DNA from: Chloranthus sessilifolius
Lineage: Eukaryota > Streptophyta > Magnoliopsida > Chloranthales > Chloranthaceae
Assembly: GCA_021018995.1 (NCBI GenBank)
Contig: CM037584.1
Coordinates: 172,254,317-172,318,316 of the forward strand
DNA length: 64,000 nucleotides
Direction: 5' to 3'
Below the pieces are notes generated by a model. It made no database searches. It was not told the origin of the DNA and saw only the letters and a list, made by a program, of their open reading frames with translations. Shown here piece by piece: positions 229 through 54,826 of this stretch (position 1 is its first letter; each line of letters opens with the position of its first letter). The translations under genes were made by a program, and so were the position numbers.

Positions 229-1093
229 TGACGGGGACGCCACATACATGGACATTGGATTCGGACTACATCAGTTTTACCAACGACGGAAGAAGCGTAG
301 AGAAAGCTCGGAGGAGAGAGGGGAGAAAAGGACACAAAGAACAGTGTCGCAGCGCTGTGACAGCCCGCAGCGCGCCGTCAACAACGATCTCAACTGGCAG
401 AATTTTAAAACTGCCATTTTTCGTTTTATTTCTATTAGGACTCTTTTCTATTTCGAATTAATTATTGATGGCCTATATATAGAGGCTTGTAAACACCTTT
501 TAATTTAGTTATTGAATATTTTGAATGCTTTTATGCTTGAATATTCTTTGCCTGAGATGGGTTTGGTTTGAGGCCAAGAGAGTGATTCCAAAGCCATTGT
601 CATTTTCTCTATTTTATTTGTTGTTTCTCGATCTGTGATTGCTTTCTAAAACCTTAGCCTAATAGTTTCCTTGCTTTCCCAAAACCTAAACCCTTTTGAA
701 ACCCTAAATCAAATATAGCCAACACCCCCTTTTTAAATCACAAACCGATCCGAAAACCCTAAACCTGTTACAAAACCAAAACCTATTACAAAACCCATAA
801 TCTAATTCCGCAACCCCGGTTCGAGTCGTGAATCTACATCGGATCGAAGATGAGCGCCTAAACCTGGAAAAACTAGAGTCCTATCTCTAGGCCCGATCCC
901 GCCTCAAATCTAACGGGACTTGCGTTTCGAATTGGACACCCTATTCGGATCTTGCGTGATTTACTTACCGAAATTCTACGAACCCGAAGATATCGTGATA
1001 ATTTTGAAATTACTCTTGAATTAATTTTATTTAATTTCGGCAAATCGCATTAAAAATCATATTCACGCATTCTAGGGTTTCCGTCCCGCGTAA
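229..1093 (+). repeat. 5' LTR of chromovirus A
   Basis: Begins TGACGGGGAC and ends CGTAA where the 3' copy has TGTCA, so the terminal CA is mutated. The first 75 bases encode the conserved pol tail (D-G-D-A, D-I-G-F, then a run of R and K). A GC-rich palindromic stretch follows at about 345-395. A TATA box (TATATATA) is at 474-481, so the transcript should start near 505-515. A leader motif conserved in all LTRs of the family (G-G-G-T-T-T-G-G then G-A-G-G-C-C-A-A) is at about 559-580. It is nearly identical to 5707-6566 except for the palindromic stretch. Confidence 0.93.
345..395 (+). repeat. GC-rich palindromic cassette in A 5' LTR
   Basis: Contains AGCGCT and CAGCCCGCAGCGCG-type short palindromes, CpG-rich. 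The homologous place in the 3' LTR (5826-5872) is AT-richer and hardly alignable, although the flanks on both sides match closely. Confidence 0.6.
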
Positions 1094-4165: not shown

Positions 4166-4171
4166 CGGCGA

Positions 4172-5706: not shown

Positions 5707-6566
5707 TGACGGGGACGCCACATACATGGACATTGGATTCGACCACATCGCTTTTAATTTCACGGAAGAAGCGTAGAGGAAGGTCGGAGGAGAGAGGGGA
5801 GAAAAGGACACAAAGAATAGTGCCACAATGTGATATCCACAGTAGCCACAATCTATTTATCTCAAATTTACAGAATTTTAAAACTGCTCTTTTTCATTTT
5901 ATTTCTATTAGGACTCTTTTCTATTTCGAATTAATTATTGATGGCCTATATATAGAGGCTTGTAAACACCTTTTAATTTAATTATTGAATATTTTGAATG
6001 CTTTTATGCTTGAATATTCTTTGCCTGAGATGGGTTTGGTGTGAGGCCAAGGGAGTGATTCCCAAAGCCATTGTCATCTTCTCTATTCTATCTGTTGTTT
6101 CTCGATTTGTGATTGCTTTCTAAAACCTTAGCCTAATTGTTTCCTTGCTTTCGCAAAACCAAAATCCTTTTGAAACCCTAAATCAAACATAGCCAACACC
6201 CCCTTTTTAAACCACAAACCGATCCGAAAACCCTAAACCTGTTACAAAACCAAAACCTATTACAAACCCATAATCTAATTCCGCAACCCCGGTTCGAGCC
6301 GTGAATCTACATCAGATTGAAGACGAGCGCCTAAATCTGGAAAAGCTAGAGTCCTATCTCTAGGCCCGATCCTGCCTCAAATCTAACGGGACTTGCGCTT
6401 CGGATTGGACACCCTATTCGGATCTCGCGTGATTTACTTCCCGAAATTCTACGAACCCGAAGGTATCGTGATAGTTTTGAGATAACTCTTGAATTAATTT
6501 TATTTAATTTCGACAAATCGCATTAAAAATCATGTTCACGCATTCTAGGGTTTCCGTCCTGTGTCA
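5707..6566 (+). repeat. 3' LTR of chromovirus A
   Basis: TG at 5707, CA at 6565-6566, preceded by a purine tract (CTAGGGGAAT). TATA box at 5947-5954. Very similar to 229-1093 outside 5826-5872, where the palindromic cassette is replaced by an AT-richer sequence. The pol frame enters the LTR and stops near 5774 after small changes relative to the other copies. Confidence 0.93.
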
Positions 6567-18630: not shown

Positions 18631-18692
<62 letters not shown>

Positions 18693-21600
18693 ACGCATGA
18701 CAGGACCCTAAATTACGTGAATGATATGATTGATTTTGCCGAAATTAAATTGGAATTAAATTAAACAAAAAAACTTGCAAAATATAATGAATACCTCAGG
18801 TTTTCGTAGTATTCCATGGGAGAATCACGCATAATTTAGGCAGGGTTCAGTCCGGGCGCTAGATCCGTTAGGTTGCAGTGCAGATCGATCCTAGAGATAG
18901 AACTCTAGGTTTTCCCAGATTAGGGCGCTTTCAATTCAATGATGGGATCACTGATTTCTCTTGATTATTTGATGTGGAAGGTTTAATAACTCTGCTGGGA
19001 TCTACGGTTGTTGAATCGGATCGATTCACGGTGTAGGAAAAATTAGGATTTAGGGTGTTAAAAGGGATGATGGCTGATGGCTGATTTAGGATTGTAAGGA
19101 TCAACACACAAACAGAGAAGATGAAATAGGTAGATAGATAGATTGATTGGCAGGCTTCACACCCTTGGCTTCGCACCAAACCCTTCTCGGGAAGAAGATT
19201 CACTCTTCGTAGAGGCTCATCTCAAGCACACATAAGCAAAAGCTCTTTTCATTCATAATCAATAATCAATCCTAATTACATTGTTTAAGGACCTTATATA
19301 GGAGGTCTTACAATAAAAGAAAACCCTAAAACGAATATTAATTAAAAGACAATTAAACCCTTAACACAAAAGTTCGAAATTAGACTTTTAAAACGACTAA
19401 GACTATTCGGCTCGATTTCGAAACGATCGAAATTGAATTTCGTTCGATTGAAATTTTCGATCGCAATTTCGATCACACTTTCGTTCGATCGAAATTGAAA
19501 ATCGTTTGATCGAAATTAAAATTCGTTCAATTGAAATTCTCAAATACATAAAATATCGAAATATCGCCGTTGTCATTTCGATCGATCGAATTGAAATTCG
19601 ATCGATCGAATTTCCAAAATTTCATCTTTTGCCTAGTTTTGATTTCCATTTTTCTTCTTCCGACGTCGGTATACACGAAAGGGTCCATATCCAATGTTCA
19701 CGATGTCGGCGTCCCCGTCAATTCTCCCCGACTCAAAATGTTTCATCACCGATGAAACACGCATGAAATGAATCCTGACACTAGGTGACGTATGAGTGTC
19801 ATCTCAGTCCATTGTAGAGGGACGTACCCAGTAACCCGGCTCACCTTGATGAGCCCAATAACCCGGCTCACCAAGCCACGCTACCAAACACTTTTGAAGT
19901 TTCGCATTGACTCGCTCGGACCTGAAGGAATTCATCTCCGATGAAGTGTGATCCCGATATTGACCAGAAATACGGGAATTCAAGCGACGAACTCTCTCAT
20001 GATTGGCTCATGCACTCTCGGAAGTCGACTCACCAACCCTTTGTATCTCGTAAACCAGAAATTTTCTGCCGCAGGTGAATGCCACAAAACTATCCCAAAT
20101 TTCCTCCATTATCTCTTGTTTCTGCCTGCTTGGATAGGGAAGTGGTATTGGTTGCAAAGTTGGTATGGGATCGTGAATAAGAGGCGGTCGGAAAGGATTG
20201 CAAGGTGGTGGGGTTGAGCCCAGAGAAGGAACTAGGTCTTCCACATTGAACGTAGAGCTGACCCCTATATCCAATGTAAGCTCGAGAACATATGCAGTAG
20301 GTCCGCTTCTTGCTAGAATTCTAAAAGGTCCAGCACCTTGGGCCTGGAGTTCCTTTACGACTCCCGATGGGAATCGTTCAGGCCTAACCCGAACCATCAC
20401 ATAATCATTCAATTGAAATTCTATAAAAGCCTTAGGTAACTGCATCGATATTTTGAGAGTTTCATTGCATAAATTAATTTCAAGCTTAATTTCGACATGC
20501 AATGCGAAATGAGACTCAAAAGATGACTTACAATAAGACTTGGAATGTATAGAAGTATGCAACTTGAGACTATGATGTGCATGCGTGTCTATGGACTCGA
20601 TACTCTCATGTGCATGTGACGCGAATGACTCACATGTAACCGACTCAAGTACTCTTGACTCTACTACCAACAAGAACTTGTGCACAATGGGCTCTACGGG
20701 CACTAACAAATCGTGTGTAGGTGACTCGGTTGAATCGTGCGTGGGTGACTCAATGACTCACGTGTGGGCGACTCAATATCACTACTCACAAGGGAAATGG
20801 TAGTCTCTTTGACACAAGTTAGGCTCTCATCAGCTTCGTTCATCTCCTCTTCACTCATCACGGTACGAGGGTCATACACCTCTTCTACTCTCAAATTTTC
20901 CTGCTCCTTAGAACTCTCCATTTTAATCAATAAATTCGGAGTGGAAAGTTCTGTGGAACATTGGTAAGCAAAATGTCCAAATCTGTGACACTTGGAGCAA
21001 TCAGGACACTTGTCTGTCTTTGATTTTAAAAATCATAAAAGATGATGGTGTGTGAGAGGAACATAATTCTCGATAAGTCGCTCCCTCATGTCTTCCCATT
21101 ATGTGATGGGCTTACGATTAGCTAAGTCGCGTAGAAGCTCAACATTGGTCCAATAGGTTTTAGCACTACCCTCCAACTTTATTTTCACTAACCTGACTTT
21201 GTACTCATTTAGTACGCCATACCAATCAAAATACTCTTCCACACTAGACAACCACTCCACAAAGGTTTTAGGATTTGCCGTACCCTCAAAATTTGGAACC
21301 TCATTCCCAATAGATTTTAGAAACCTCTCGGCAGGGTCGTACTTAGGTTCACAATGGTAAAGGTATCCCCTAACTCTAGTCTCGTCACAAATTTTGAGAT
21401 TTTGCCCATAATTTGATATGTAGCGGCCCCTATTATTAATTGCACACATTTGGGCTTTGACGTCCCTAAGGGCATCAACAATCTCGCTCATGCTCAAGGT
21501 GAACACGGCTTACTAACACGAATGCTAAATGTCATGCAAACATGAACCACAATGGATGAGGAATTTTGTCAAACAGTAGATATGCATACTTTTGAACAAA

Positions 21601-24311
21601 AATGACATGGCATCAAAGACATCGAAATGACATACACATGTGACTCAAGATGAATAAGGACTTTTGTCGAACACAAGACGTGCGCAATGATGAATACAAA
21701 TGACATGAGATTCCATTAAATTAAAATGACATGCCATATGCCCTAACCTAGAACCTAGGGCTCTGATACCAAAACTGACGCAGGACAAGACCTTAAATTA
21801 CGGGAATGATATGATTGATTTTGCCGAAATTAAATTGGAATTAAATTAAACAATAAAACTTGCAAAATATAACGAATACCTCAGGTTTTTGTAGTATTCC
21901 ATGGGAGAATCACGCATAATTTAGGCAGGGTTCAGTATGGGTGCTAGATTCGTTAGGTTGCAGTGCAGATCGATCTTAGAGATAGAACTCTAGGTTTTCC
22001 CAAATTAGGGCGCTTTCAATTCAATGATGGGATCACTGATTTCTCTTGATTATTTGATGCCGAAGGTTTAATAACTCTGCTGGGATCTACAGTTGTTGAA
22101 TCGGATCGATTCATGGTGTAGGGAAAATTAGGATTTAGGGTGTTAAAAGGGATGATGGCTGATTTAGGATTGTAAGTATCAACACACAAACAGAGAAGAT
22201 GAAATAGATAGATAGATAGATTGATTGGCAGGCTTCAGGAAGAAGATTCACTCTTCGTAGAGGCTCATCTCAAGCACACATAAGCAAAAGCTCTTTTCAT
22301 TCATAATCTATAATCAATCTTAATTACATTGTTTAAGGACCTTATATAGGAGGTCTTACAATAAAAGAAAACCCTAAAACGAATATTAATTAAAAGACAA
22401 TTAAACCCTTAACACAAAAGTTTGAAATTAGACTTCTAAAACGACTGAGACTACTCAGCTCGATTTCGATCGCACGAAATTGAAAATCGTTCGATCGAAA
22501 TTGAATTTCGTTCGATCGAAATTTTTGATCGCAATTTCGATCACACTTTCGTTCGATCGAAATTGAAAATCGTTCGATCGAACTTCTCAAATACATAAAA
22601 TATCGAAATATCGCCGTTGTCATTTCGATCGATCGAATTTCCAGAATTTCATCTTTTGCCAAGTTTTGATTTCCATTCCGCTTCTTCCGACGTCGGTATA
22701 CACGAAAGGGTCCACATCCAATGTCCACGACGTCGGCGTCCCCGTCATATATATACTGAAAGAAGCATGGTCCATAGGACCAGGTTCAGGCCCCAAAATG
22801 TGACACGTGGCGCTATGAACATTGGTTTGGTGCCACGTTTAACAAGCGGCCGGCCATTGTATAGAACACATACAAGGAAACAAAGTAAAAAAGAAAAAGA
22901 CATTGCGTGATTTTGGCATCAGAAAATCAATAGTGACAACAATCTGTTTCAACTGTCCAATTTCCGATGAAAAAAATCACCGTTTTTTCAAGTGATACCC
23001 CAAAAAAGGTTTTTCAAGGTTTTCAATCATGTTGGCATTAAAGTAGCTGTAATTATTTGAGTTATTAAACTTATATCTTCAAAGGTAACATATTAATAAA
23101 AACACAGTAACCATTATGACAAGTGCAAATAATCATTCTTAGCAGCTTAGAGAGTGAACTAATATATTCTTCCCTCCAAATTCTAAACTAGAGTGGGTCA
23201 TACCTTTCTACAGTAGTTTGGCAATTTTCAAGTATACCTGTTGTCAGAACTATTGTATCCTTGGCACGTCCTTCAAGAACAAGCATTCCTCCACAATGAC
23301 GACTCCTTCCAGTAGAATTGTTTGGAACAATCCAACCTATATCACCAGTGTTGAGCCATCTGTCCTCATCTATAGCTGCATTTGTAGCAGCCAGATTCTA
23401 TCTCAAGAAACAAAAGGAAATATCAAGTCACCAAGAGGAAACAATTCAAGCTTTAAGAATCCTATTATCATATCCACATTCACGTTAAAATAGGTTTAGA
23501 ACACAAACTTGATTGGGGAGATAGTTTAATTCCCAGGAGTTTCACTGAGACAGTCACAGCTCCCTTGGTATATCCATTTTCTAGTCAAAGGAGTTTATCG
23601 TATTTTTATATATATACTTCACTTATATTAAACTATATTACATTATACATAATACATAGTATATTAAATCCAATGTTTGAAACCTTGACCTATTCTGATA
23701 AGTATCAGTACTTGGTCTGATTGATACAATACTTAAGTTGGCATACGGGCCTTTACAAAGTCCCATTTTTTTTGTTTAGTTCGTTCTTCTACCTATCTAT
23801 CTATCTATCTATCGATTGATCTATCTATCTATCAAGGTTAAAATAGGTTTAGAACATAAACTTGATTGGGGAGGTAGTTTAATTCCCAGGAGTTTCACTG
23901 AGACAGTCACAGCTCCCTTGGTATATCCATTTTCTAGACAAAGGAGTTTATCGTGTTTATATATATATATATATACTTTACTTATATTAAACTATATTAC
24001 ATTATACATAATACATAGTATATTAAATCCAATGTTTGAAACCTTGACCTATTCTGATAAGTATCAGTACTTGGTCTAATTGATACAATACTTAAGTTGG
24101 CATACGGGCCTCTACAAATTCCCATTTTTTTGTTTAGTTCGTTCGTTCGTTCGTCTACCTACCTATCTATCTAATCTATCTATCCATCTATCTATCTATC
24201 TATTTATCTAATCTAATCTAATCTAATCTAACCTAATCTATCTAATCTATCTATCTATCTATCTATCTATCTAATCTACCTACCTACCTACCTACCTACC
24301 TATTCTATCGT

Positions 24312-24359
<48 letters not shown>

Positions 24360-27300
24360 TTCACTTATATTAAACTATATTACATTATACATAATACATA
24401 GTATATTAAATCCAATGTTTGAAACCTTGACCTGTTCTGATAAGTATCAGTACTTGGTCTAATTGATACAATACTTAAGTTGGCATACGGGCCTCTACAA
24501 ATTCCCATTTTTTTGTTTAGTTCGTTCGTTCGTTCGTCTACCTACCTATCTATCTAATCTATCTATCCATCTATCTATCTATCTATCCATCTATCTAATC
24601 TATCTATCTAATCTAATCTAATCTAACCTAATCTATCTAATCTATCTATCTATCTATCTATCTATCTAATCTATCTATCTAATCTACCTACCTGCCTACC
24701 TACCTATTCTATCTATCTATCTATCTAATATATATATATCTGAAAAATTGAATGCATATATTAAATTATATACCTTTATGTTGAAATTACATATATACAC
24801 TTCGGGACCCCCCGGATCTTGGGACGCCCGCCTAAACGCTGCCTGGCCCGATCCTCCCGAAAATCCACCCGACCACCCAAACCCACCCACCGACTTTAGG
24901 AACATTGAGTGCTAGAATTGATTCAACCTAATTGTTTTAATTAAATTTATTAAATTATTTTATGTGGTTGGGTAATTTGAATATTTCCGCTATTCAATTT
25001 AATATGAAGTTAATCCCAAATTCGCATAATTAAGGTTTTAGCGTTTATCCTGCATCAAGTTTCTTTTTAGATAGTGAAAAATTGGAATAGTTTAGAACTT
25101 TGCGACTATGGATTCTTGTACAACACACTTAGTGTCATATTTTGTTCAATTTATTTTATGTAAATTTTAATTTCGAATGCTACATATGATGGAATGAATG
25201 TCTTTAACCAATTAGTATTATAAGGAAACAATCATTGATTGTTATATATATTTCATTTTTTATTTTTTTGTATGTTTCTCTATCCCCTCTATCTATATTT
25301 ATAAAAATATAATTGTATCGTACGATACAAGATATACACCATTTGAAAACCTTGGATACAAGAAACATACCTTTCTACACGTGCTTTTATATTGTTTGGT
25401 GGTGTTAAAATTCTGTGATAATTTATGCTGAAAATATATTTGCTCGCACATAGAACTTGGATCATAAATGGATAATTTTTTCTATACTTCTTCAAAACAA
25501 GCATTTGTTCATGAGTTGTGAATGCAGCGTATGATAAGATTACTAGTCTAAGCCGAGGTCCGACAGAGACTCAGCTCAGTATTATTGTTAAAATGCAACA
25601 ACGACACATAAGGAGATACATGCTGGATGGCATGTGCACATCATCCCATAATAAACTTGCAGATAAACTCCAGAATAAGAAAAAAAATTACACTGCAATC
25701 TGTTTTCTCATATCATTTGTGATTCTCTGAAGACTTATATGTTAATGAAGATTTATCATGTAATGATGAGGCAGTTTTATTTCATGCATATTCTATGTGA
25801 ATTTGACTAAATAAAACCCAAGCAGATTAAGACAGCTTATTTATATGGTTGACAATCAATCAAATTTCATGGTATTCCAGTGACTCGAATAGAAATCCAT
25901 TACCTTGTAGTAACCCTTCATCACCTGTGGCCCTCTAACTTTGACAATGCCCTTCGAACCAGCTGGGAGATCTTTGGCAGTTTCTGAATCTACAATTTTA
26001 ATTTCCGTATGTCGAACTGGATGGCCAACGGTGCCAAGAACCTTGAATAATTAAATCTGTCAAACTAAAGCACACTATACCGTTCTAACTTCAACTTGGA
26101 CTGATAATTTTGGAAGTCAAAACTAAAAGCAAAACAAAAGAAGCAGCCTATAAAGGGATTAAAGAAGCAACATGAAATGGGTTTCCGTTTCAAATTTAAG
26201 ATAAATTTCATTACTGAGGTACCAAAAAACATCTAAAAAGTAGAATGGCATTATAGTTTCTACTTAAGACGAATTTTGGAATTTAGTATATTCGTGCATC
26301 ATCTATATGGATCCTTACCAATAATATAGTGGGCTGAATTGAACCTAACATATGTTGGCATCTGAAAAACCTCAAATTACACAAATTAGCTAGTTGCTCA
26401 TTATCATATTAGCATAAAAAGCTTTTTCTTTCTAGTGAGTTTGACATGACAGAGGTAAAATAGCAGTTGCACACCGGGGATCTGGTTAAAATTTAAGTTG
26501 TTCAATGTTACTCTTTTATATAATATTTCAAATGTAGGAGACACACTAAATGATCAATTTAAACTGGTAAAATATGCAGTAGGAAAAAGATTGAACCTAA
26601 AGTAGTTATCTTACTCAAATTATTAAGTGGAACAACTATAGAGGATACATAATCCTGATAATGTATTCTAGCTGTGAACAAAACTTGCAGTTATCCTCAG
26701 TTTATTTACAGATTAACATCAGTGAAAGAAGAAAGAGCAGGAGATAGGGTTTCAGACCAATTTTATTTTACCCTTTCTTTATGATATATTTCAAAAATAC
26801 CCTTAAGAACTAGGAATGATCAAGCTGCGCTTATGCTAAAGAAACCCAAGTAATTCTGTTGCCCACTATGCCTTAAAAGCATAAGTAACACTCAAGCTGT
26901 AACATAGATGTCAATAATGCACAAGTTGCATATGATGCTATCTAGATGTTTCTGTCCGAGTGGTTTATTAAAAACACTAGCTGATTCTCAGAGCTTACAT
27001 GAGTTATAGATATTTCTTACGCAAATTATACACAACGAAAAATTGACAATAAACTTTAATATCTTTAGGAACTCCAAGAAGTGACGAAATATGTTCTGCA
27101 ACCAGATTCTTACAGTCCATCTGACGCGGGACGATAACCCTAAAATGCGGAATATGATTTTAATGCGATTTGCCGAAATTAATTAGAATTTAATCAAGCG
27201 TAATCTCAAAACTATCTTAAATACCTTAGGGTTCAGAGAATTCAGGTTGGTAGATCACACGAGATCCAGTTAGGGTCCAGTCCGATGCGCGAGTACTATT

Positions 27301-30300
27301 AGATTTGAGGCAAGATCGGCCTAGAGATAGAACTCTAGCTTTTCCAGGCTTAGGCGCTCGTCTTCGATCCGATGTAGATTCACGGTTCGAACCAGGGTGG
27401 CGGAATTAGGTTATGGGTTTGTAATAGGTTTTGGTTTTGTAACAGGTTTATGGTTTGGAAAAAAGGGTGTTGGCTATGTTTGATTTAGGGTTTCAAATAG
27501 GCTTAGGGTTTTGGGATCGAAAGGAAACAATTAGGCTACGGTGTAGGGGAAGCAAACACAGATCGAGAGATAACCAATATAATAGAGAAGATAACAATGG
27601 CTTTTAGGAATCACTCCCTTGGCCTCACACCAAACCCATCTCAGGCAAAGAATATTCAAGCATAAAAGCATTCAAAATATTCAATAACTAATTAAAAAGT
27701 CTTTACAAGCCTCTATATATAGGCCACCAATAATTAAAATTCGAAATAAAGAGTTCTAATAGAAATAAAACACAAAAAGGCAAGTTTTCGCTAAAAAAAA
27801 CTCAAATTTCGGAAGCCCGTCACGACGTCCACGGACGTCCGTAGTGCCCCACGGACGTCCGTGACCTACGGACAGTGAAGGGGCAAAATCACGGACGTCC
27901 GTCACTGTTCACATGAACAGTAATTTTTTTTTTTTTTCTTTTTTGAAGTTGAAATTCTATTGCGGTTCAACTTCAATACTTTCAATCTTGACGTTCCCCG
28001 TCACCATCACTATTGTAACATCATACTACAATTACATAGCAAATGTTCCCTACCAGTTCAACTCTCATGCTCTATATACTGCTGTTCAGTGTTCAGCCAG
28101 TAGGAGATGTGACGCCTTTCTAGTCTCCAATATTTATCTGTTATGATGTAATGGATTTTATTGAAATAAATGACTTTTTATTTTGAGCCACTCTATTTTT
28201 TATTGTTGTCAATGTGTCTTTATTTTCATCCCTAATGCGCTTCATATTCATTTATGTGCTTTGTAGATGTTTTGCTAAATCCATACCCAGAATAGCTGGT
28301 GCTAGTCCGAAACTCTGTTCTCTCCCACACAGGCATATTAATTTTTTGTTAAGGCGAAGACTGCACCTTTATTAGGTACTTCTTTCATTGTGCACCATTC
28401 TGTCATGCAGTCTCATGGATTCTTAATGCTAGATGTTATTACAAATAACAATCTTATGAAGTCTGAGAATTTGACCAGGACGTCAATATATTAATTTGAT
28501 TTAGTGTGAAGGTTGCAACATTTTGATGAGTGTAAAAGTCTCGTACTTTGGGTAAAATTTAGATGTCACTGGGAAAGTTGTCAGATGTGACCAGAGTAGT
28601 TTATGATCCTACCTCATAGAAAATTGATGTTATGTACAGGGACATATATTAGTTTGGTATAGTGGTGTGTCTTGTAATGATTGGCTTGCAAACACCATAA
28701 TATGGATGTACTGGTAATTTCCTTTTCTCTTACTCATAAGGCTAGCTGAGCAGCCATTCACTCTATTCACTTTCTCTCCTCTATTCTTTATCCTCACAAA
28801 CCTAACACTAAATCCATTAAACTTAAGTTGGTACAGAGCCAGACAAGAGTTACCCTTTGCTGATACCATGAGGTCAAACTTCTGTCCTCGGATCACGACA
28901 TAATCCATATCTTCTGAGAGAGATTGATTTATGGTATTTTGTGATTTTTTTTTCCGACTATGATTGATTTTCTGTCATGGTGGAATTTTATGGGATTCGG
29001 CTCAATAATTAAATCAAGGGTTCACTAGGCACCTATTTTTGAAAACCACCCAAATTCCCTCAACTGATTTTATGCCCTGAATCTCCTGGTGAAGTATCGT
29101 TTTGAATCTGACAGCTGCATTTTATTTGGTGACGAGGAATGTCATGGCACGTTTTGACCCCTTCATCTATTGATCTTCCTCAGATCTATTTTGACAGATC
29201 TCTCTGGCATGATACTAAGGTATGGTTTATTGTTGTTTAATCTTGATTGGAACTTTATTAGAGACATTTGAGCCGTGATTTATGATTTGTGGTGTTGTTA
29301 GGGATTTTTGGTGCTTGGATGACGCACGACAAAACCCGAAACTACGTGCGTGCGATGAATTAATTACTTGCCGAAATTAATTTAAATTATATTGAACAAT
29401 GTGTTTGAAAATAAAGCAAATAACTTAGGGCTTCTTTGTTTCCCATTTGAGAGATCGCGTTCAGGTTCAGGAAAGGTCTAGTCCATACGCTAGATCCGTT
29501 ACGTCAGTAGTGTAGATAAGTTCTAGAGGTAGAACTCTAGATTCCCAGATTAGGGCGCTCACAATTCAATGATGGGATCACTGGTTTTCTCCGGATATTT
29601 GATGCGAAAGGGTTTAATAGCTCTGATGGGATCTACGGTGGTTGAATCGGGTCGGTTCAATGATTTAGAGAAAAGCTAGGGTTTATGATTTCGGGTTTAT
29701 GCAAATATTTAGAAGCTGAGAAAGAAAATAAAGTAAGAGATAAATAGAAGATAGATGTTGTGGGTTTCACACCCTTGGCTTCACACCAAACCCATCTCGG
29801 GAAACGAAGAATCACTCTTCGGAATTGCTCATCTCAAACAAGGAAGCAAAAATTCTTTTATTCAATAATAAAAAACTAATTACATTGTTTATTAAAAGAC
29901 CTTATATAGGAGGTCTCTAAAACATAAGAAAACCCTAAAAAAAAAAGAAAAAAGACAAGTATGCCCTTAAAACTTAAATTCTTCAAAATTCGCACTGTTG
30001 CTCGATCAATCGAGGTACTGTAGCACTGTCGCTCGATCAATCGAGTTACTGTAGCAATTTAAAAAAAAAAAAAACTGACTACAATCGATCAATCAATTGA
30101 ATGGTCGATCAATCGACTGAGCATTGCTCCAACATACTAATTCTGCTCCTTTAAGCCTGGTTCTGCTTTCCGTTCCGCTTCTTCCGACGTCGGTACACAC
30201 GATATAGTCCGTATCCAATGTCTATGATGTCGGCGTTCCCGTCATTGGATATCCGAGGTTTCTTCTTTATTTAAAGGGTTTTTGCAGTTCTATTTGGGAT

Positions 30301-33300
30301 TTTATGATCTGTGGTGTTGCCTCAAGAGATTTTTATGATACTCATGGGCTGTTCCACCTCGTTTGCTGCCTGACTCTAAGTGGTTGGGTTGTCTTTGTGA
30401 ACGTGGACGTCTTCCCACATTGATAGACCCTTGGGAATGCTTTTCCCACAATTTGGGTTGGAAGCTACGTGGTTTGTCTCCGAATTCGAGCCATATTTTT
30501 TGAATGAATATGGAATCTGAGTTGAATACTGGTGTGGGTCACACTCATAGTATTATAACTGTGAAACTTAATGGAGATAAGTTCCATGCATTTGCTTGAT
30601 TCGCGAATATATGGGCAGCTGTAGGAATATAGGTTACTATCTCGGCCCCAATAAAGTCCCATCCAAAGCCGATGACATCTACACAGTGGGAGATCAATAA
30701 TTGTACTGTGTAGGGTTGGCCCTACAACTCCATGGAAGAGCACAATTTAATATGTTGCAAAGATCCATGAAACTGTTGATCAATTTTGGAATGCTCCCAC
30801 ATAGACGTATGCACATGAAAACAATGACCCTAGGTATCTTAGTTGCATGGTGAAATCTCACGAGCCAAGTAGGATGATGAAGGTGTTTAAGAGTATTATG
30901 GTTATCTTCAGCAGAGATGAGATGAGATGAGTTGAGTCAGGATGAGCCTCTATCTGAGTTCCCTGGTGATGGTCCGAAGATTGTTGCCCGTCAATCAGAG
31001 TACTACTAGATTTATGCATTTTTGGTTGGGCTACACCTTGATTATGAGTAGCTCCATGCCTAAATTTTTGCTACATCTATGCTTCCTTCTCTTTGATCTG
31101 CTTCTCCACTTCTCGATCATATTGGCCTTGCTTCATTTACTCGAGGCAGGGGGAGTGATCATGTTCGTGGTTATGGAAGTAATTTTACATGCACCATCTA
31201 TAACAAAGCGGGCCATAACAGATCCACATGCTTCAAGCTCCAAGGCTATCCACCTTGTTCAGGACCTACATCCTTAACCATTGCTGACAGCGACGTCGAC
31301 ATCGTGGACATAAGCTATGGACCATATCGAGTGCACCGGCGATGGAAGAAACGGGACGGAAATCAGAACCGGGTGTAAAAGCAACCAGAGTCGAGCATAA
31401 AGGGGGACACGAAAGAATGCACAGTCGATCGATCGATTAGTGACTCGAGACTCATATATGATTATATATATATATATACTTGATCAATCAACCTTAGTAC
31501 TCGATCGATAGAATTTTAGTGAAAGAGAGCTTTGCCAAAATACGGAAATCGTTTTGAGGGGCATACTTGTCCTTTTTGATTATTTGTTTTAGGGTTTTAT
31601 TTTGTTTTAGAGACCTCATATATAAGGTCATTAAGAAAAACATTGTAATTAGTTTTTGATTAATGAAAAGAGCTTATGCTTTCTGTTTGAGATGAGCAAC
31701 TACGAAGAGTGAATCTTCTTCCCGAGAAGGGTTTGGCGTGAACCCAAGGGTGGAAAGCCCACACTCTATCATCTTCCATCTCTTTGATTTATCTTTCTCT
31801 ACTTTTATTTTATCCCCATAACCCTAAATTCAGCCATTACTCTTTCAAATACCCCAAAATCATAAACCCTAGCTTTCATTTGAATCGTTGAATCGATCTG
31901 ATTCCCTAGATCTCATTTGAGCCATTAAATCATTCAACATTAAAACATCCTGAGAAAGCTACGATCCCATTTTGATCGAAGAGCAATGCCCTAATCTGGA
32001 AGCGGCTAGAGTTCTATCTCTAGGATCTTCCTTCCGCGAGGCTAACGGATCTAGCTAATGGACTGGACCCTACAAACCTACTCGATCTTCTAAGCGGTAA
32101 ACCATGAACCTTAAGGTATTGCGATTATGTATTAATTTTTGCTTAATTAATTTAGTTTGATTTCGACAAAATATTCATTTCATTATCCTTCATGTAATCT
32201 AGGGTCTTGTCCCGTGTCAGTTTTGGTATCAAAGCTTAGGTTCTAGGTTAGGGGATATTTGTGTGACATTTTAATTTTATTGCATTTTATTTCAATTGTG
32301 ATAAAAAGTGTGCATGTCAAGTGTTTGTTAAAATTCCTCTTTTATTGTTGGTTCATCTTTGCATGCCACTTTAGAACCCATACTAGTAGTCGTGCTCACC
32401 ATGGATATGAGCGAGGTTGCCGATGCCCTTAAAAGCATCAAGGCTGAGTTGAATGCAATCAATGATCAAATGGCTGCCATGGAGCAAGCCCAAATAAACC
32501 TTGCGACTTCCAATGGAAGGTTGCTAAACCAAGTCAATCGGTTAGAAAGGGTTGATGAGCACCTTGAGCAGCACCGTGAGCGTGATGGCCGATGGCCCAT
32601 GCTTCGAGCGCGGTGGTCATCAGAATGATCAAAATTGGAACCATCGGGTAGATCATCGTGGAGATCCTGATAGGAAACTCTTAAAAAATGTTCGAGTTGA
32701 GTTTTCAACCTTTGATGGAAGAATGAACCCTAAAGTCTTCCTCAATTGGTTATCCGATATGGATCATTACTTTGAGTGGTATAACATGAGCGATGCGTTA
32801 GGCTCACCAAAATGAAACTCATTGGTCAGCCTCAACTCTTTTGGGTCAATGTCGAGCATGTAAGAATGATTGCAGGTTGTGCTCCCATTACCCGTTGGGA
32901 GGACACGAAGGTATGACTTACAGAGAAGTACGTACCTTCATCATACTACCATTGCCTCCTTGATCAATGGCAAAATTTACGCCAAGATAGTATGCCCGTG
33001 GCCGAGTACATTGACAAATTTGAGGAATACATGATGAGAGCCAAGGTATCGGAAGATCCTCAAGTCTCTCTCTCTCGATTTCACACCGGATTGCGATTTG
33101 ACTTACAAAAAGTGTTGGTCTCTCATCCCGTTGAAAACCTCGATCAGTGTTACACCGCCGTTCAGGGCCTTGAACGATATTTGAAAATGATGGTGGTGAG
33201 ACGATCTGAATCTCATACCGGTCAACATCGTACCGGAGAGGTGAGACTTAATGCTGGAAACCCACACAATCCACTTCTACTAATGTGCGGTTTGACAAGG

Positions 33301-36300
33301 GAAAGGGTGTGGTAGGAGAATCCTCGAGGGCCGGTTCGCAAGTCAAGTGTTATAAATGTCGAAGATTAGGACACTTTGCCGCTCAATGCCCTATGAGAGA
33401 TCCCCAATGGAATCTCTTCATTAAAGGAGAGGGAGATGAAGAGGGTGGAAATTTTGAAGAAATCTTCGAGCCCGATGTCACACCTAGTGATGAAGAGGGT
33501 GATGACCGTGGTCGTGCTCTAGTTGTGAGGTGTGCCCTTGCACAACCTCAACGAGATGAAAATGAGGATTGGCGTAGGGAGAATATCTTCCACACCTTCG
33601 CCACTTGTGGAAAGAAGAGTGGTAGGGTTATCGTGGACAGTGGGAGTTGCACCAATGTGGTGCTGACACACATTGTCACCAGCTTAGGATTTACACCTGA
33701 AGCTGACGGGGAACGTCACGAAAAAAAAAAAAAAAAATAAATTTTTTTACTGTTCATGTGAACAGTGACGGACGTCCGTGATTTTGCCCCTTCACTGTCC
33801 GTAGGTCACGGACGTCCGTGGGGCACTACGGACGTCCGTGGACGTCGTGACGGGCTTCCAAAATTTGAGTTTTTTTAGCGAAAACTTGCCTTTTTGTATT
33901 TTATTTCTATTAGAACTCTTTATTTCGAATTTTAATTATTGGTGGCCTGTATATAGAGGCTTGTAAAGACTTTTTAATTAGTTATTGAATATTTTGAATG
34001 CTTTTATGCTTGAATATTCTTTGCCTAAGATGGGTTTGGTGTGAGGCCAAGGGAGTGATTCCTAAAAGCCATTGTTATCTTCTCTATTATATTGGTTATC
34101 TCTCGATCTGTGTTTGCTTCCCCTACACCGTAGCCTAATTGTTTCCTTTCGATCCCAAAACCCTAAGCCTTTTGAAACCCTAAATCAAACATAGCCAACA
34201 CCCTTTTTCTAAACCATAAACCTGTTACAAAACCAAAACCTATTACAAACCCATAACCTATTTCCGCCACCCTGGTTCGAACCGTGAATCTACATCGGAT
34301 CGAAGATGAGCGCCTAAGCCTAGAAAAGCTAGAGTTCTATCTCAGCCGATCTACTCAAATCTAATAGTACTCAAGAAGAGGATCTTGTGTGATCTACCAA
34401 CCTGAATTCTCTGAACCCTAAGGTATTTAAGATAGTTTTGAGATTACGCTTGATTAAATTCTAATTAATTTCGGCAAATCACATTAAAATCATATTCCGC
34501 ATTTTAGGGTTATCGTCCCGCGTCAGTTTTGGTATCAGAGACCTAGGTATTCTAGGTTAGGGCATTTTATTTGTCATATTTATTTTATTGCATTATTTTT
34601 TCGTTTGTGAGTCCATATTGCATGCCATATTAGAACCCTAATAGACCTTGTGATCACCATGGCTTCGGATGAGGTTCTTAATACTCTTAGATCTATGCGA
34701 GAAGAATTGGGTGCAATTAGTGCACGTTTGAATACCATTGAGCAAGCCCAAACATCCCTAGGAGTTGGTAATGATAGATTACGTGATCGAATCAACCAAC
34801 TGGAAGCAATGGATGGGCTGGAAAATCAGCACCAAGAGCGTGAATGTCCCCACTTGGAACGTAATGGTCGCCAAGACAACCGGAACCGTAGGAATCATCG
34901 TAGAGATGACTATGACCCCGAAGTTCAACTCCTTAAGAATGTCCGAGTTGAGATTCTGACTTTCGATGGAAGAATGGACCCTACCGTCTTCCTCGATTGG
35001 CTTTCTGACATGGACCAACACTTTGATTGGTATGCCATGAATGACGACCGTTGCGTTAGACTCGCAAAAATGAAGTTGGTTGGCCAAGCTCGGCTTTTCT
35101 GGCTCAATGTTGAGCGCATTAGGGTGAACGCGGGTTGTCCTCCCATTACCCGTTGGGACGACATGAAGGAACGACTTACTGAGAAGTATGTTCCTTTATC
35201 ATACCACCAACGCCTCCTCGACCAGTGGCAAAACTTACGCCAAGGTGGTATGCCCGTGACCGATTACATTGCCAAATTCGAAGAATTCATGATGAGGGCA
35301 AAAGTATCGGAAGACCCTGAAATCACTCTCTCTAGATTCCGCACTGGATTGCGACTTGATTTGCAGAAAGAGTTGATTTCTCACCCCGTAGAAACTCTTG
35401 AAAGATGCTATGCCGTTGTGCAAGATCTCGAACGGTATCTGAAAACTACGGTGGTGAAGAGGACCGAGTCCCAATATAGTAGCCAACGATCCGGAGGGGA
35501 TTTATCAATCCTCCTCCCAAACCTACACAACCCACCCCTACCAATTCTAGGTTTGAAAAGGGAAAAGGCGTAGGCGGAGAATCCTCAAGGGTTAATTCTC
35601 AAGTAAAATGCTATAAATGTCATGGGATGGGACACTTTGCCGCCCAATGCCCTACGAAAGAACCCCAAAGGACTCTCTTCATTGAGGGAGAGGAGGATGA
35701 TGATGAGGTAGTGGTTGAAGAGGAAGTATTTGAACCGGTTAGCACACCCAATGATGAGGAGGGTGATGCTATTGGTCATGCTTTAGTTGTGAGATGTGCT
35801 CTTGCACAGCCTCAACGAGATGAAAAGGATGACTGGCGTAGGGAGAACATCTTCCACACCTATGCCAGATTCGGTGAAAAGAATTGTAGGGTCATCGTGG
35901 ATAGCGGTAGTTGCACTAATGTTATATCAACTCATGCCGTACGCCGCTTAGGGCTTACACCTGAAGCCCACCCGAGACCTTATAAAGTCGCATGAGTCAA
36001 TTCTTCATCCATTCCCGTGTCGAAAAGGTGTCGTGTACCAATTCAGTTAGGTTCTTATTCGGACACCTTATGGTGCGACGTGGTGCCGATGGATGTGGGC
36101 CATATTATTTTGGGAAGGCCGTGGCTCTACGACATGGACGTGACTCTTTCTGGTCGAACAAACATATGCACGTTCATGCATAAGGGCAAAAAGATCACTT
36201 TACACCCTTTGCCTCCCAAAACACCATCGACCAACACCGTTGAAAAGAAGGGCGAATCTTCTAAATCCATTAATATTGTGAGCCCTTCTGAGTTCGAGAA

Positions 36301-39300: not shown

Positions 39301-42300
39301 ATGCGTGTTTCATCGGTGATGAAATATTTTGAGTGGAGGAGAATGACGGGGAACGTCACGAAAAAAAAAAAAAAGAATTTTTTTTTTACTGTTCATGTGA
39401 ACAGTGACGGACGTCCGTGATGAACAGTGACGGATGTCCGTGAAACACTGACGGACGTTCGTGATTTTGCCCCTTCACTGTCCGTAGGTCACGGACGTCC
39501 GTACTCTGGACGTCCGTGAACGTCGTGAAATATGAGAAATATGAGTTTTTTTTTGTGTTTTATTTCTATTAGAACTCTTTATTTCGAATTTTAATTATTG
39601 GTGGCCTATATATAGAGGCTTGTAAAGACTTTTTAATTAGTTATTGAATATTTTGAATGCTTTTATGCTTGAATATTCTTTGCCTGAGATGGGTTTGGTG
39701 TGAGGCCAAGGGAGTGATTCCTAAAAGCCATTGTTATCTTCTCTATTATATTGGTTATCTCTCAATCTGTGTTTGCTTCCCCTACACCGTAGCCTTATTG
39801 TTTCCTTTCGATCCCAAAACCCTAAGCCTTTTGAAACCCTAAATCAAACATAGCCAACACCCTTTTTCTAAACCATAAACCGATCCGAAAACCATAAACC
39901 TGTTACAAAACCAAAACCTATCACAAACCCATAACCTATTTCTGCCACCCTGGTTCGAACCGTGAATCTACATCGGATCGAAGACGAGCGCCTAAGCCTG
40001 GAAAAGCTAGAGTTCTATCTCTAGGCCGATCTCGCCTCAAATTTAATAGTACTCGCGCATCGGACTGGACCCTAACTGGATCTCGTGTGATCTACCAACC
40101 TGAATTCTCTGAACCCTAAGGTATTTAAGATAGTTTTGAGATTACGCTTGATTAAATTCTAATTAATTTCGGCAAATCGCATTAAAATCATATTCTGCAT
40201 TTTAGGGTTATCGTTCCGCATCAGAAGCTCACCTGAGACCATAATCTGGAAGCGGCTAGAGTTTTATCGCTAAGAACTTCTTTCCGCGAGGCTGACGGAT
40301 CTAGCACACAGACTGGACCTTACCCAAACCTACACAATCATTCATGCGGAAAACCATGAACCTTAAGGTATCGTGATTATGTATTGATTTTTGCTTAATT
40401 AATTTAGTTTAATTTCCGCATAATATCCATTTCATTATCATTCATGTAGTCTAGGGACTTGTCTCGCGTCAATTGCACATTCTAGAACTATTGTCGTCGA
40501 GTCCTCTAGTGACCTTCGAGTAGTATTGTGAGGTATGATGGTGCATATGATTGATTTCTATATGTGTCAAGGTTGTTGATCTTCGTGAGAAACTATAGGC
40601 TACCTTGTCTGCTCCTTTGGATTAGACCCCATGTACTTCTGCATCATCAACATTCCATACTAGGTCTTCTGCATAGACTTCTATTTGGGTCACTGACTCG
40701 TGTTTTTGACCACATGTCCGATGAGTCATAATTGTTTTCATTTCATGCACCATTAAGTATCGGTTGAAAGGTACGTTTGCCAAATGGTTCAACTACTCCG
40801 ATCACCAGTATAGGTAGTGCTCCCCTATCAGCTAGCCACTCTCTTTCTCATGTTCTACATGTTTAGAAGCTTAGTACTAATTTAATATCTGTTAGTCGCC
40901 TCACAAAATCTTTGAACTAGTTTGTCACAATTTTCTCCTCTTCATTGAGTTTTTAGGACTTGACTACAAGGCAAATTTTTTTGTATGGGGCAAGAACGGG
41001 ATGATCTCCTCCTCTTCGATGATGCTCGACCAGCCGCTTTTTCCTCCATATAGATAGGATTACCTTTTTCCTGTCATAGCTTGTTTATGGGAGATGTAGT
41101 GTCTAGTGGTTGCATAAGCTTTAATTTTTTAGTTTTTTAGAGTGCCAAAACTTTTTGTTACTAGTAACATATTTTGTTGCTTTTGCTTCGTTTTGGAGTT
41201 TTAGTTTTCTTTACAATTCCGGAAACACCTTCTCTTGATAACTCTAGTTGATAAGGTGGAAATATGTTGTTATCCTATGTTTTTAGTAATTCCTATTATC
41301 TTATAATTGACAATTCGTTTTCATAGTCAACTGTTATTATAGGAAGATTATTTTACTCGTTGTGTATGTTCAGGCAAATAAAACTTAAAACACGTAAATA
41401 TGTCAAATTAGATGAAAAGACGACGGTCTCTGCTTAATTTGCTATCAAGAGCTTGAACATGTATACCCCGGAGGGGCTTAGGTGCCACTAGCCAAATATG
41501 AGGTCACCACCCGATTTTTTCAGTAAAGCTGGGAAACCAAAATCTCCTAAGATTTGACTCCCGCTACCGGTCTAACGAATAACTAAGTCAGGGGCTCCGT
41601 TACACAAAGGGGAAGTGTGTTGGACACCCCTTGCGCCCGCGCGAATGCAGTCACCTCTTAGGCTCGTTTAATGGCTATGCGATCAAAAGTAAAACAATGA
41701 CAATGTAAGGGAATGTAAAGGAAAATGAGAGGAAAATAATTTTTTTTGAAAATGATTCTCTCTTGTTTGTAGGCTTCTCCATGCACATGCTCTAACTGAT
41801 ATCAAGGACACTATCAAGGCCGCTACAATGCTTTTTGAGCAGAGTAACAACGATGATAAAGGAAGTGTATGTGTAAATATCAAAACTAAATTGAGCAGAG
41901 TCTCCTCTTGCCCGAAGGCAAGGATCCACAAAGCTAAGCCCCAAACTCGCAATGGTTTCAGCAGAGGGCAAGGAGAGACTGAAAAAGGAAAATAGAATTG
42001 CAATAAGAAAATAAAGATTAGAGAAGGAGTAGATGAAGAGAGCTTTTGCTCTTGACTGGAACTTGAACCAAGAGGATGTTTCAAGGGTGTAAGGGTGAGG
42101 GGTATGGTAGATCTAAGGATCTAGGGTTTGGCTACGGTTAGGGATGAAGGATTAGGGTTTTGGAATGGAGCAGGAGATGAATGTGGAGGAATTAAGGTAG
42201 AGTCTCACTTAAAGTTTTCATCCCTTTGAGAGGAAAAATTATCATAATTTATAGCAAAATAGGCCAATGGGGGCTTGATAAGTGTCAAGCACTCATTGGC

Positions 42301-53843: not shown

Positions 53844-54826
53844 TGACGCAGGACAAAACTCTCAACTACGTGAATGATGATAAAATGATCATTTTGCCAA
53901 AATTAAACGAAATTAATTAAGCAAAATCAATACGAATAAATGCGAATACCTTAAGGTTCGTAGTTTTCTATTCGGAGGATCACATTTGATTCAGGTAGGG
54001 TCCGATCCGTTGCGCTACATCTGTTAACCTCATAGAAGGAAGATCCTAGAGGTAGAGCTCTAGCCGCTTCCAGATTAGGGCGCTTGCTTGTGGTTCAATG
54101 ATGGAACCTCAGGTTCTTCAAGGGTTTAGAGATCGGGTCGATTCAAGGGTTTAGATTGGTTAGATGGCTGGGATGAGATTTAGGGTTATTGAATCGGATT
54201 GATTCAAGGGTTTGGATGAAAATTAGGGTTTATGGTTTCAGAGTATTTGAAATGGTGATGGCTAGATTTAGGGCTTATGAGAATAAAATAAAAGCAGAGA
54301 ATAAATAAACAAAGATAAAGATAAGAGATAAAATTGTGGGCATCACACCCTTAGCCTCACACCAAACCCATCTCGGGAAGAAGAATCACTCTTCAACAAT
54401 GGCTCATCTCAAGCACACAAGCAATAACTTTCATTCATAATCAATAACTAATTACAATGTCTATTTAGAGACCTTATATAGAAGGTCTCACAAAAGAAAA
54501 TAAAACCCTAAAACAAATACAAAAAAAGACAAGTATGCCCTTAAAACTCAAATTGTAATTCTGACGGATCCCATTCTCGCGAAAATTGATCGATCGACAC
54601 TTGGTACTCGATCGATCGACTTATGTATATATATCGTCAGAATTGAATCCCTCACTAGCCACAGTCGATCGATTGATTCCAGGTGTTGATCGATCGACAG
54701 TGCATTGCTCCAGCACGCTGATTTTGCTCCTTTAAGCCTAAGTTCTAGTTTCCGTTCCACTTCTTCCGACGCCGGTACACACGATATGGTTCATAGCCTA
54801 TGTCCACGATGTCAGCGTCCTCGTCA
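53844..54826 (-). repeat. 3' LTR of E
   Basis: 983 bp, in element orientation 54826 (TGACGAGGACG) to 53844 (CTGCGTCA). Pol tail encoded by 54755-54826. Cassette of CGATCGATCGAC units at 54580-54705. TATA-like CCTTATATAG near 54472-54482. Leader block near 54345-54372. The flank at 53839-53843 is TGCTT; no partner is visible on the other side. Confidence 0.92.
54580..54705 (-). repeat. CGATCGATCG cassette, LTR E
   Basis: Four palindromic blocks (TCGATCGAC twice as TTGATCGATCGACAC-like, ACTCGATCGATCGAC, AGTCGATCGATTGATT, TTGATCGATCGACAG) with spacers unlike those in F, H or I. Confidence 0.82.

Follow-up and report, generated by a model that had tools for sequence, protein, structure and literature searches.

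The closest described counterparts of the repeats studied here are the Sireviruses, Ty1/copia elements whose LTRs carry repeated palindromic motifs (Bousios et al. 2010, PMC2829016). That account describes the palindromic motif as specific to Sireviruses, classic Ty1/copia elements lacking it, and the CpG-rich cis region holds at least eight motif copies per element, mostly in the LTR before the TATA box and built on a CGG-CCG core. In maize, Sirevirus LTRs have a palindrome-rich cis region of high sequence variability (PMC5311732, PMC10760457), and the Copia palindrome is found in Helitrons too (PMC10760457). Tnt1, Retrolyc1 and Retrosol are Ty1/copia elements in which a variable U3 defines subfamilies on a conserved rest, with modular evolution (PMC1838419); the word 'palindrome' is absent from the main text of that study. 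RLG_Cereba and RLG_Quinta of einkorn wheat, gypsy elements of the CRM kind, conserve the part starting near the TATA box, while their upstream halves are partly wholly different (PMC11302176). One upstream motif of RLG_Quinta is common to the Copia family RLC_Gisela; the RLG_Quinta motif is a CENH3-nucleosome sequence, with no palindrome array in its description there. In group A of the CRM clade, the pol frame, which encodes the CR motif, extends as far as the 3' LTR (PMC3059260).

We analysed a window of 64,000 nucleotides from the 2.17 Gb genome of Chloranthus sessilifolius (contig CM037584.1, 172,254,317 to 172,318,316) that carries several Ty3/gypsy chromovirus copies, whose LTRs fall into types G (including the solo LTR J), A, F, H, E and I. 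Like Sireviruses, this family bears several copies of one element-specific, CpG-rich palindrome upstream of the TATA box. The Sirevirus Usier unit GTCGGACGTCCGAC (PMC2829016) includes the CGGACGTCCG core that we see in G, and the Tnd-1 unit ACAATCGATTGT from the same account includes CAATCGATTG, which is present here in 5 of 20 I copies. Unlike Sireviruses, those of maize included, the present family belongs to Ty3/gypsy and has a chromodomain. G cassettes do have the CGG-CCG core (CpG observed/expected 1.77), but with 0–6 exact units per LTR (mean 3.1), whereas the F, H, E and I units are palindromic without the CGG-CCG signature. As in Tnt1, subfamilies differ in their U3 blocks, while the rest is conserved; as a difference from CRM elements, a Pfam chromodomain is found here. 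A similar palindrome arrangement is already known from another retrotransposon group, and literature searches for a palindrome cassette in Ty3/gypsy elements found none among the matches listed. New here are the cassette gaps between paired LTRs, the CpG decay in E, H and I, the cassette swaps and mosaic G LTR, the unit spacing, and the occurrence of ACGGACGTCCGT arrays in a second repeat family.

The LTRs of the window

Pfam matches on eight ORFs from several family copies, pooled over copies and none forming one intact frame, comprise gag-CCHC, protease, RT-RNaseH 5' of integrase, and a chromodomain at the integrase C-terminus, as in Ty3/gypsy chromoviruses. The terminal features agree: TG...CA LTR ends (TGACGGGG...GCGTCA), the 5-bp target-site duplication (TSD) GAAGC and a tRNA primer site. 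The A element has RT-RNaseH ahead of integrase and so lacks the Ty1/copia domain order of Sireviruses, in which integrase comes first. The features are, by position:

229..1093, plus strand: A element, 5' LTR; its cassette contains CAGCGCTG and GCAGCGCGC
3033-3971: RVT_1/RNaseH (Pfam)
4130-4825: integrase H2C2/rve (Pfam; rve below the Pfam cut-off)
5707..6566, plus strand: 3' LTR of the A element, no A-type palindromes in its cassette; TSD CGAAG
18691..19720, minus strand: F-type LTR, TTCGATCGAA units
21776..22747, minus strand: F-type LTR, TTCGATCGAA units
27122..28003, minus strand: solo LTR J, same type as G; palindromes at 27831-27842, 27850-27863 and 27891-27902
29320..30244, minus strand: H-type LTR, TCGATTGATCGA units, CpG-decayed; cassette without a CpG palindrome of at least 10 bp
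31285..32219, plus strand: E-type 5' LTR, TCGATCGATCGA units and (TA)n
33699..33703, plus strand: TSD GAAGC, left copy
33704..34525, plus strand: 5' LTR of the G element (TGACGGGGA...CGCGTCA), an element flanked by GAAGC on both sides
33704..33720, plus strand: short LTR head TGACGGGGAACGTCACG
33750..33765, plus strand: inverted repeat CTGTTCA-TG-TGAACAG opening the G cassette
33768..33779, unstranded: palindrome ACGGACGTCCGT, unit 1
33807..33820, unstranded: palindrome CACGGACGTCCGTG, unit 2 (14 bp including flanks), 40 bp from unit 1
33828..33839, unstranded: palindrome ACGGACGTCCGT, unit 3, 20 bp from unit 2
33950..33955, plus strand: TATATA box, core promoter
34530..34540, plus strand: primer binding site TGGTATCAGAG
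34611-35995: gag, CCHC and protease (Pfam; protease below the cut-off)
39344..40223, plus strand: 3' LTR of the G element
40224..40228, plus strand: TSD GAAGC, right copy
53844..54826, minus strand: I-type LTR with TCGATCGATCGA units; in this copy the pol frame extends into the LTR as far as its stop at 54745
54745-55557, minus strand: SH3_Tf2-1 and Chromo (Pfam; Chromo 26.5 bits, cut-off 25.1)

In copy L015, the inverted repeat at the cassette start is a perfect 16-bp palindrome with CACGTG.

The original prediction had placed a hypervariable palindromic cassette just inside the LTR. Position 33704 is indeed the first base of the 5' LTR, with ACGGACGTCCGT palindromes upstream of the TATATA at 33950. 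Between LTR head and TATA box we find subfamily-specific units, as anticipated: ACGGACGTCCGT in G and J, TTCGATCGAA in F, and TCGATCGATCGA and its relatives in E, H and I. The cassettes share this one place in all groups read, which rejects unrelated insertions at differing positions. As to the flanks, described as still alignable, the A and G cores are 81.9% identical and those within E/F/H/I 63–72%, but across the two sets identity is only 54–59%.

Palindrome content and exchange of the cassettes

Twenty-two of the 36 CpG-containing palindromes of at least 10 bp in the window fall in ten U3 regions that make up 4.9% of it, 19 in cassettes and 3 in coding-type LTR heads (F1, F2, H). Compared with 500 shuffles at 10 bp, the window U3s of G5, G3, J, F1, F2 and E are significant (p 0.002–0.012; the E value includes an unmasked (TA)n run), and those of H (0.23), I (0.14) and both A LTRs (1.0) are not. 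At 8 bp, I (0.006) and the A 5' LTR (0.046) reach significance, and H (0.22) and the A 3' LTR (0.24) do not. Downstream of the TATA box in the window, the excess is nominal and confined to I at 10 bp (p 0.026).

The genomic sample comprised 30 G, 30 A and 20 each of F, H, E and I, taken from the best 40 per query (41 for I), with 2779–4865 first-look candidates for the six queries. Most copies come from the list tops, some entries (frequently a neighbouring LTR) being passed over, and those resembling the window's are therefore over-represented; the window's own L009, L039 and L041 are among the 140. Coverage was computed on 138 of these (two A copies, L046 and L058, were too short), with (TA)n and homopolymers masked and shuffles as a simple null. 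Across the 110 G, F, H, E and I copies, palindromes of at least 10 bp cover 11–18% of the cassette versus 1–5% after shuffling (observed/shuffled: G 17.9/1.3%, F 15.5/4.6%, H 16.1/2.3%, E 11.7/1.6%, I 10.7/1.3%). Palindromes are thus commoner than in shuffled sequence, as predicted, in five of the six sampled groups. The broader statement that all versions consist of palindromes does not hold for the GC-rich A cassette, where coverage is 0.8% versus 1.1% shuffled and CAGCGCGCTG is retained in only 2 of 28 copies.

Cassette types have been swapped between similar promoter cores. Unlike cassettes sit on the A and G cores, and two cassette types occur on I-type cores 91–95% identical to the window's. 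The longer head of the related solo LTR matches a second head type of I copies at 76.5%, versus 60.6% for A; head and cassette types were sorted by simple regular expressions. The G LTR is a mosaic. The swaps on similar cores, the mosaic G LTR and a 20–22 bp spacing support the proposal that putative dimeric-factor sites have been replaced. The reading that we favour, and consider somewhat probable, is that the cassette is a U3 enhancer module, an array of dyad-symmetric, CpG-rich putative protein-binding sites that is exchanged as a unit.

Cassette gaps, unit spacing and CpG decay

The two LTRs of one element commonly differ in the cassette. A 44-bp two-unit block in the 3' LTR of the window's G element is missing from its 5' LTR, and all eight TSD-confirmed pairs show a cassette gap of at least 12 bp. 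The gap blocks contain palindrome units in five of them (G_win, G_p3, F_p1, F_p4, F_p6); the other three have no clean unit gaps (G_p1, with an odd copy, and A_win and A_p1, with 15- and 12-bp pieces). The TSD check covered 14 pairs, nine with readable flanks, of which seven had a perfect 5-bp TSD, and five with no match; the TSD of A_win was read by eye. Among 22 putative pairs, those of H, E and I being assigned by strand and distance alone, 16 have a gap of at least 10 bp bearing a palindrome core (by our own pattern) and 6 do not. Pair G_p4 was dropped from the gap count because its copy L014 looks error-ridden (U3 identity 80.6%). F_p3 and F_p6 had no anchor in the first pair comparison, which invalidates their U3 and core rows; in a repeated core/tail comparison within the LTR, F_p6 again lacked an anchor and F_p3 was disturbed by an insertion.

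It is quite possible, if just short of probable, that part of the hypervariability stems from errors of sequencing or assembly where palindromes are methylated and repetitive, and the A copies and about nine G copies may be partly affected. Some odd words turn up in more than one independent copy (AAAGGAT..GACGTC in L016 and L029; CATCGT..GTAGG in L029, L034 and L038; GGCCTTG in 5 of 30 A copies), although words common to several copies could be inherited. In A, 12-mer sharing is 0.35 in the cassette and 0.91 in the unselected LTR tail. Over core and tail (560 bp), G_p1 shows 18 gap openings with 22 substitutions and G_p3 shows 20 with 10, compared with 1–6 openings in most other pairs. Yet most G copies are clean (median 12-mer sharing 0.94, computed without L018 and L040), and unit-carrying steps of 21–23 bp are unlike a base-calling pattern.

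Adjacent palindromes lie 20–22 bp apart, roughly two helical turns, in 75 of 106 pairs in H/E/I and in 52 of 99 in F, and G has 32 of 70 pairs at 20–21 bp and 20 of 70 at 40 bp. After similar spacers are merged, 17 of 31 in H/E/I keep the preferred spacing (p 2.4e-10 against a simple uniform null of 14–45), and the preference is weak in F (5/16, p 0.013) and G (3/10, p 0.06); three 30-bp spacers are not independent of one another. A 10.5-bp phase test is significant for H/E/I only (p 0.003). The spacing preference is firm in H/E/I. Inherited tandem units could be an alternative source of the 20–22 bp step, and 21-bp spacers in H/E/I still share 0.42 identity, versus 0.28 at random.

Spacing of 20–22 or 40 bp speaks for bound dimeric proteins rather than for RNA hairpins, which the original prediction had offered as an alternative and by which the U3 at the transcript's 3' end would fold and either feed small-RNA silencing or mark the RNA. 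The folding potential itself is real: the window cassette has z-scores of -5.9 (sense) and -5.1 (antisense), matched by none of 200 shuffles, and means over eight copies per group are -5.2 for G, -4.4 for H, -3.8 for F and -3.7 for I. Palindromes of maize Sireviruses are, moreover, small-RNA hotspots (PMC5311732, PMC10760457). Good folding is, however, no independent evidence for a hairpin role, because any palindrome array folds well; folding is on average not unusual in E (mean z -1.0) and A (-0.8), where several copies lack it, and hairpins require neither the spacing nor CpG richness. We consider this explanation rather unlikely.

CpG observed/expected is 1.25–3.16 in the five palindromic groups, versus 0.83 (G) and 0.94 (A) downstream. 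Unit variation within E/H/I is mostly CpG decay, since 181 of 224 mismatches are CpG transitions, and the R in CGATCRATCGA, earlier taken as part of the unit, is accordingly rejected as a separate site type. Old age of the copies is rejected as the sole cause, since 0–6 exact units are found in G copies whose cores are 99% identical. The high CpG content and its decay, a mark of methylation, are what a dense CpG methylation platform would produce, serving as a silencing or boundary element with palindromy a by-product of symmetric CG words, and Sirevirus motifs define CpG islands (PMC2829016). We find such a platform distinctly improbable: the palindromes reach beyond CG pairs, their remaining positions are stable, with 24 of the 224 mismatches (in units chosen at no more than two mismatches), and the spacing preference is left unexplained. 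Functionless neutral turnover, in which short units multiply by slippage and imperfect inverted repeats are repeatedly turned into perfect palindromes by template switching, fits the frequent gaps between LTRs of one element and the (TA)n microsatellites in the same interval, but is very doubtful in view of the array's place, which is before the TATA box in every group read, of a CpG richness kept against decay, spacing held as spacers diverge, and an identical palindrome in a second repeat family.

Candidate enhancer modules and their possible sharing

If the cassette is an enhancer module, its palindrome array would act from between the LTR head, which codes the pol end where seen, and the core promoter. 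Sites commonly 20–22 or 40 bp apart would place neighbouring dimers on the same helix face, and subfamilies differ by the palindrome making up the array. Template switching or gene conversion may trade arrays between elements as modules, and arrays may lose or gain length by units. Host dimeric factors would bind the array, this binding would control transcription, and swapping of site types would be under selection.

ACGGACGTCCGT arrays are present in a second repeat family too (L169, L170), paralleling the Copia palindrome in maize Helitrons; in L170, with other flanks, palindromes are spaced 21, 75, 22, 81, 20, 40, 20, 41 and 21 bp apart. Genome-wide, CGGACGTCCG triple arrays number 557 (overlapping triplets counted), versus 0 for a backwards control. 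We tentatively entertain the possibility of a common pool of exchangeable cassettes, with two-turn-phased arrays of the same few palindromes (CGGACGTCCG, CGATCGATCG) shared by plant retrotransposons of either superfamily and by one or more further repeat families. Each palindrome would be read by a conserved dimeric host factor, and cassettes would pass between unrelated elements and be swapped once silencing catches up.

These observations address the open question of how retrotransposon promoters are renewed under host silencing. If phased arrays are an exchangeable module of both LTR superfamilies, host factors could be fished with short DNA words, and spacing mutants would cleanly separate bound proteins from RNA hairpins.

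Elements and cassettes in the window

The window (C1:172254317-172318316 of the 2.17 Gb assembly) holds nested copies of one Ty3/gypsy chromovirus family, and Pfam recognised gag, zinc knuckle, protease, RT-RNase H, integrase and chromodomain in the ORFs of several copies. LTR letters were assigned by the motifs named in the original prediction:

33704-40223, G element, target-site duplication (TSD) GAAGC
33704-34525 and 39344-40223, LTRs of the G element
229-1093 and 5707-6566, A LTRs
27122-28003, J LTR, solo
18691-19720 and 21776-22747, F LTRs
29320-30244, H LTR
31285-32219, E LTR
53844-54826, I LTR

The G element, its TSD intact, is inserted into the gag region of an E element (31285-33703 and 40239-40474) whose interior, as far as the 3' LTR end, had probably been deleted before the insertion. 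Downstream, at about 250 kb from the window, another E element (C1:172567869-172573889) has a counterpart at C15:4309065-4315134. Their LTR starts pair one to one by eye (L110 with L109, L111 with L112), a likeness that reflects either duplication of the segment or an artefact of assembly.

The cassette, that is the variable U3 interval between LTR head and TATA box, carries at 33704-33960 three ACGGACGTCCGT palindromes (33768, 33808 and 33828), the second of which extends to 14 bp. An inverted repeat, CTGTTCA-TG-TGAACAG, occupies 33750-33765, and TATATA follows at 33950. Compared with 500 dinucleotide shuffles of each window U3, coverage by palindromes of at least 10 bp was significant for both G LTRs, J, both F LTRs and E (p 0.002-0.012, with the (TA)n run of E unmasked) and not significant for H (0.23), I (0.14) and both A LTRs (1.0). 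An 8 bp threshold additionally passed I (0.006) and the A 5' LTR (0.046). On the 3' side of the TATA box, only I displayed a nominal 10 bp excess (p 0.026). Further CpG palindromes, CCGATACGTATCGG and TTGTATCGTACGATACAA, occur at 10873-11108 and 25313-25330; a stretch resembling these interrupts the F-type LTR of copy L161.

Palindrome content and spacing across genomic copies

Six genome searches used each type's promoter-proximal core, without its cassette, as query, and 40 candidates of each were scored. We read 140 U3s and, after masking (TA)n and homopolymers, computed coverage on 138.

Palindrome coverage at 10 bp (138 U3s) and CpG observed/expected ratio of the cassettes
Type; coverage observed/shuffled (%); CpG o/e
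G; 17.9/1.3; 1.77
F; 15.5/4.6; 3.16
H; 16.1/2.3; 1.97
E; 11.7/1.6; 1.76
I; 10.7/1.3; 1.25
A; 0.8/1.1; 0.92

The palindrome cassette is real in five of the six sampled versions. The original prediction that every version is palindromic thus holds for G, F, H, E and I, which exceed their shuffles, and fails for A, whose cassettes carry no excess. At least one exact ACGGACGTCCGT was present in 28 of 30 G copies, and CAGCGCGCTG was retained in 2 of 28 A copies. Over the 600 bp downstream, CpG o/e was 0.83 in G and 0.94 in A. Ahead of the G cassette lies a poly-A tract of variable length (L011, L012, L013, L023 and others); some copies have (TA)n or (AAT)n in place of part of it.

Odd words turn up in the cassettes of about nine of 29 G copies and of most A copies. 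They would be explained by errors of base calling or assembly in methylated repeats, as would the indels outside the cassette in two G-type LTR pairs (18 gap openings in G_p1 and 20 in G_p3, in 560 bp); some odd words recur in independent copies. Median 12-mer sharing in cassette versus LTR tail was 0.94 versus 0.98 for G and 0.35 versus 0.91 for A, the tail serving as yardstick because the search had selected for the core and not for the tail.

Between adjacent palindromes at most 45 bp apart, 75 of 106 H/E/I spacings fell at 20-22 bp (50 distinct spacers) and 10 at 31 bp, as did 52 of 99 F spacings at 20-22 bp; the 70 G spacings included 20 at 20, 12 at 21, 13 at 23 and 20 at 40 bp. We merged similar spacers into clusters and tested these against a uniform 14-45 bp null and for 10.5-bp phase. 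In H/E/I, 17 of 31 clusters lay at 20-22 bp (p 2.4e-10; phase p 0.003), in F 5 of 16 (p 0.013; phase p 0.59) and in G 3 of 10 (p 0.06; phase p 0.56), so that by this test the preference is firm for H/E/I only. It may stem from inherited units, since the 21 bp spacers in H/E/I keep a mutual identity of 0.42 versus 0.28 for random ones. That the palindromes function as RNA hairpins is disfavoured: RNA of the window cassette folds strongly (z -5.9 sense, -5.1 antisense), but it does so because the cassette is palindromic, folding is on average weak in E and A copies, and spacing and CpG richness speak rather for DNA binding and methylation.

Module swaps and unit differences between LTRs

In the window's I copy, the chromodomain-bearing frame stops at 54745, within the LTR, and A, F and H have LTR heads that resemble each other. 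The flanks would remain alignable because coding sequence and core promoter border the cassette in I/A/F/H-type LTRs. By BLAST, A-head-like sequence lies at 39194-39284, ahead of the G element's 3' LTR. The A-type head is pol-coding, and the G element's own LTR head now lacks such sequence; the stretch outside the LTR appears to be a sign of LTR exchange. The head of the G-type solo LTR is nearest a second head type, seen in I (76.5%) and E (67.6%) copies, with 60.6% for A, and the G core is nearest the A core (81.9% versus 57-59% for others). These similarities suggest that the G LTR is a mosaic. The cores of 20 I copies are 91-95% identical to the window's, yet they carry two cassette types, with (TA)n or GAGTACC-type spacers in 7 copies and ACAGT-type spacers in 11 (neither in 2); cassette type is therefore not fixed by the core. 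The ACAGT-type cassette is joined to both head types, twice to head 1 and nine times to head 2.

The two LTRs of a single element are initially identical. All eight pairs with a perfect TSD (seven found by script, the window A pair by eye) now display a cassette alignment gap of at least 12 bp. Gap blocks carry palindrome units in five: the window G element (44 bp), G_p3 (23 bp), F_p1 (12 and 21 bp), F_p4 (86 bp) and F_p6 (99 bp). The gaps are not clean units in G_p1 (46 bp, one odd copy), the window A pair (15 bp) and A_p1 (12 bp). Exact 21-bp steps occur in the putative pairs E_110_111, E_116_126, E_117_127 and I_132_136, paired by strand and distance alone. In the 11 pairs that could be validly split, the ratio of U3 substitutions to those of core plus tail ranged from 0.3 to 2.7; in G_p4, where copy L014 seems error-ridden, it was about 10. 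CpG transitions account for 181 of 224 mismatches among 232 H/E/I units and for 68 of 142 in F units, where they equal non-CpG transversions in number, so decay explains only half in F.

The cassette layout fits an array of putative dimer-binding sites that would govern the core promoter and diversify via module exchange and unit turnover. With its ACGT core, the G unit is reminiscent of bZIP sites.

Arrays beyond the LTR family and known systems

Three CGGACGTCCG units with 5-30 bp gaps matched the genome 557 times (overlapping triplets counted), and the backwards-read control of this pattern gave 0 genome matches. In 23 strings from the C1 matches listed, steps measured 20, 21, 23, 33 and 40 bp, the 40 bp steps being built by three dissimilar 30-bp spacers. 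Three arrays were fetched on account of odd spacers. One, L171, is distantly related to the G-type LTRs (about 73%) and has the same palindrome, at spacings of 21, 33, 40 and 21. The others belong to a second dispersed repeat family:

C1:25994900-25995350, L169
C1:156823600-156824060, L170

These two, 71.6% identical over 303 bp, hold 8-10 ACGGACGTCCGT-like units, spaced 41, 40, 20, 80, 20, 75, 21 in L169 and 21, 75, 22, 81, 20, 40, 20, 41, 21 in L170 (at most 3 mismatches per unit). Within the 451 and 461 bp read, they resemble the cassette only, with no similarity to the LTR core. The repeat gave 242 first-look candidates, and no two of the 40 places scored lie within LTR distance. L169 and the G cassette share 71 bp at 76% (E 7e-9), hence a common origin of their arrays is likely. 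As two of the three 30-bp spacers occupy matching places in L169 and L170, and L169 resembles the G cassette, these spacers show a length that was kept despite letter divergence and not one that arose independently.

Palindromic repeated motifs 5' of the TATA box are described for 13 Sireviruses, where the repeated motif is termed Sirevirus-specific; the cores of Usier's GTCGGACGTCCGAC and Tnd-1's ACAATCGATTGT are also present in the cassettes studied here (Bousios et al. 2010, PMC2829016). In contrast to Sireviruses, the host here is a chromovirus, and among the literature matches listed we found no description of palindrome cassettes in a Ty3/gypsy element. Maize Sirevirus palindromes have been linked to small RNAs (PMC5311732, PMC10760457), and the reported occurrence of the Copia palindrome in maize Helitrons (PMC10760457) parallels the G-type array in L169/L170. 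U3 diversification is known from Tnt1 (PMC1838419), and in the Cereba/Quinta pair part of the LTR 5' of the TATA box is completely different (PMC11302176). While palindromic U3 motifs as such were already known, the chromovirus host, the spacing, the module swaps and an array common to another repeat family are new.
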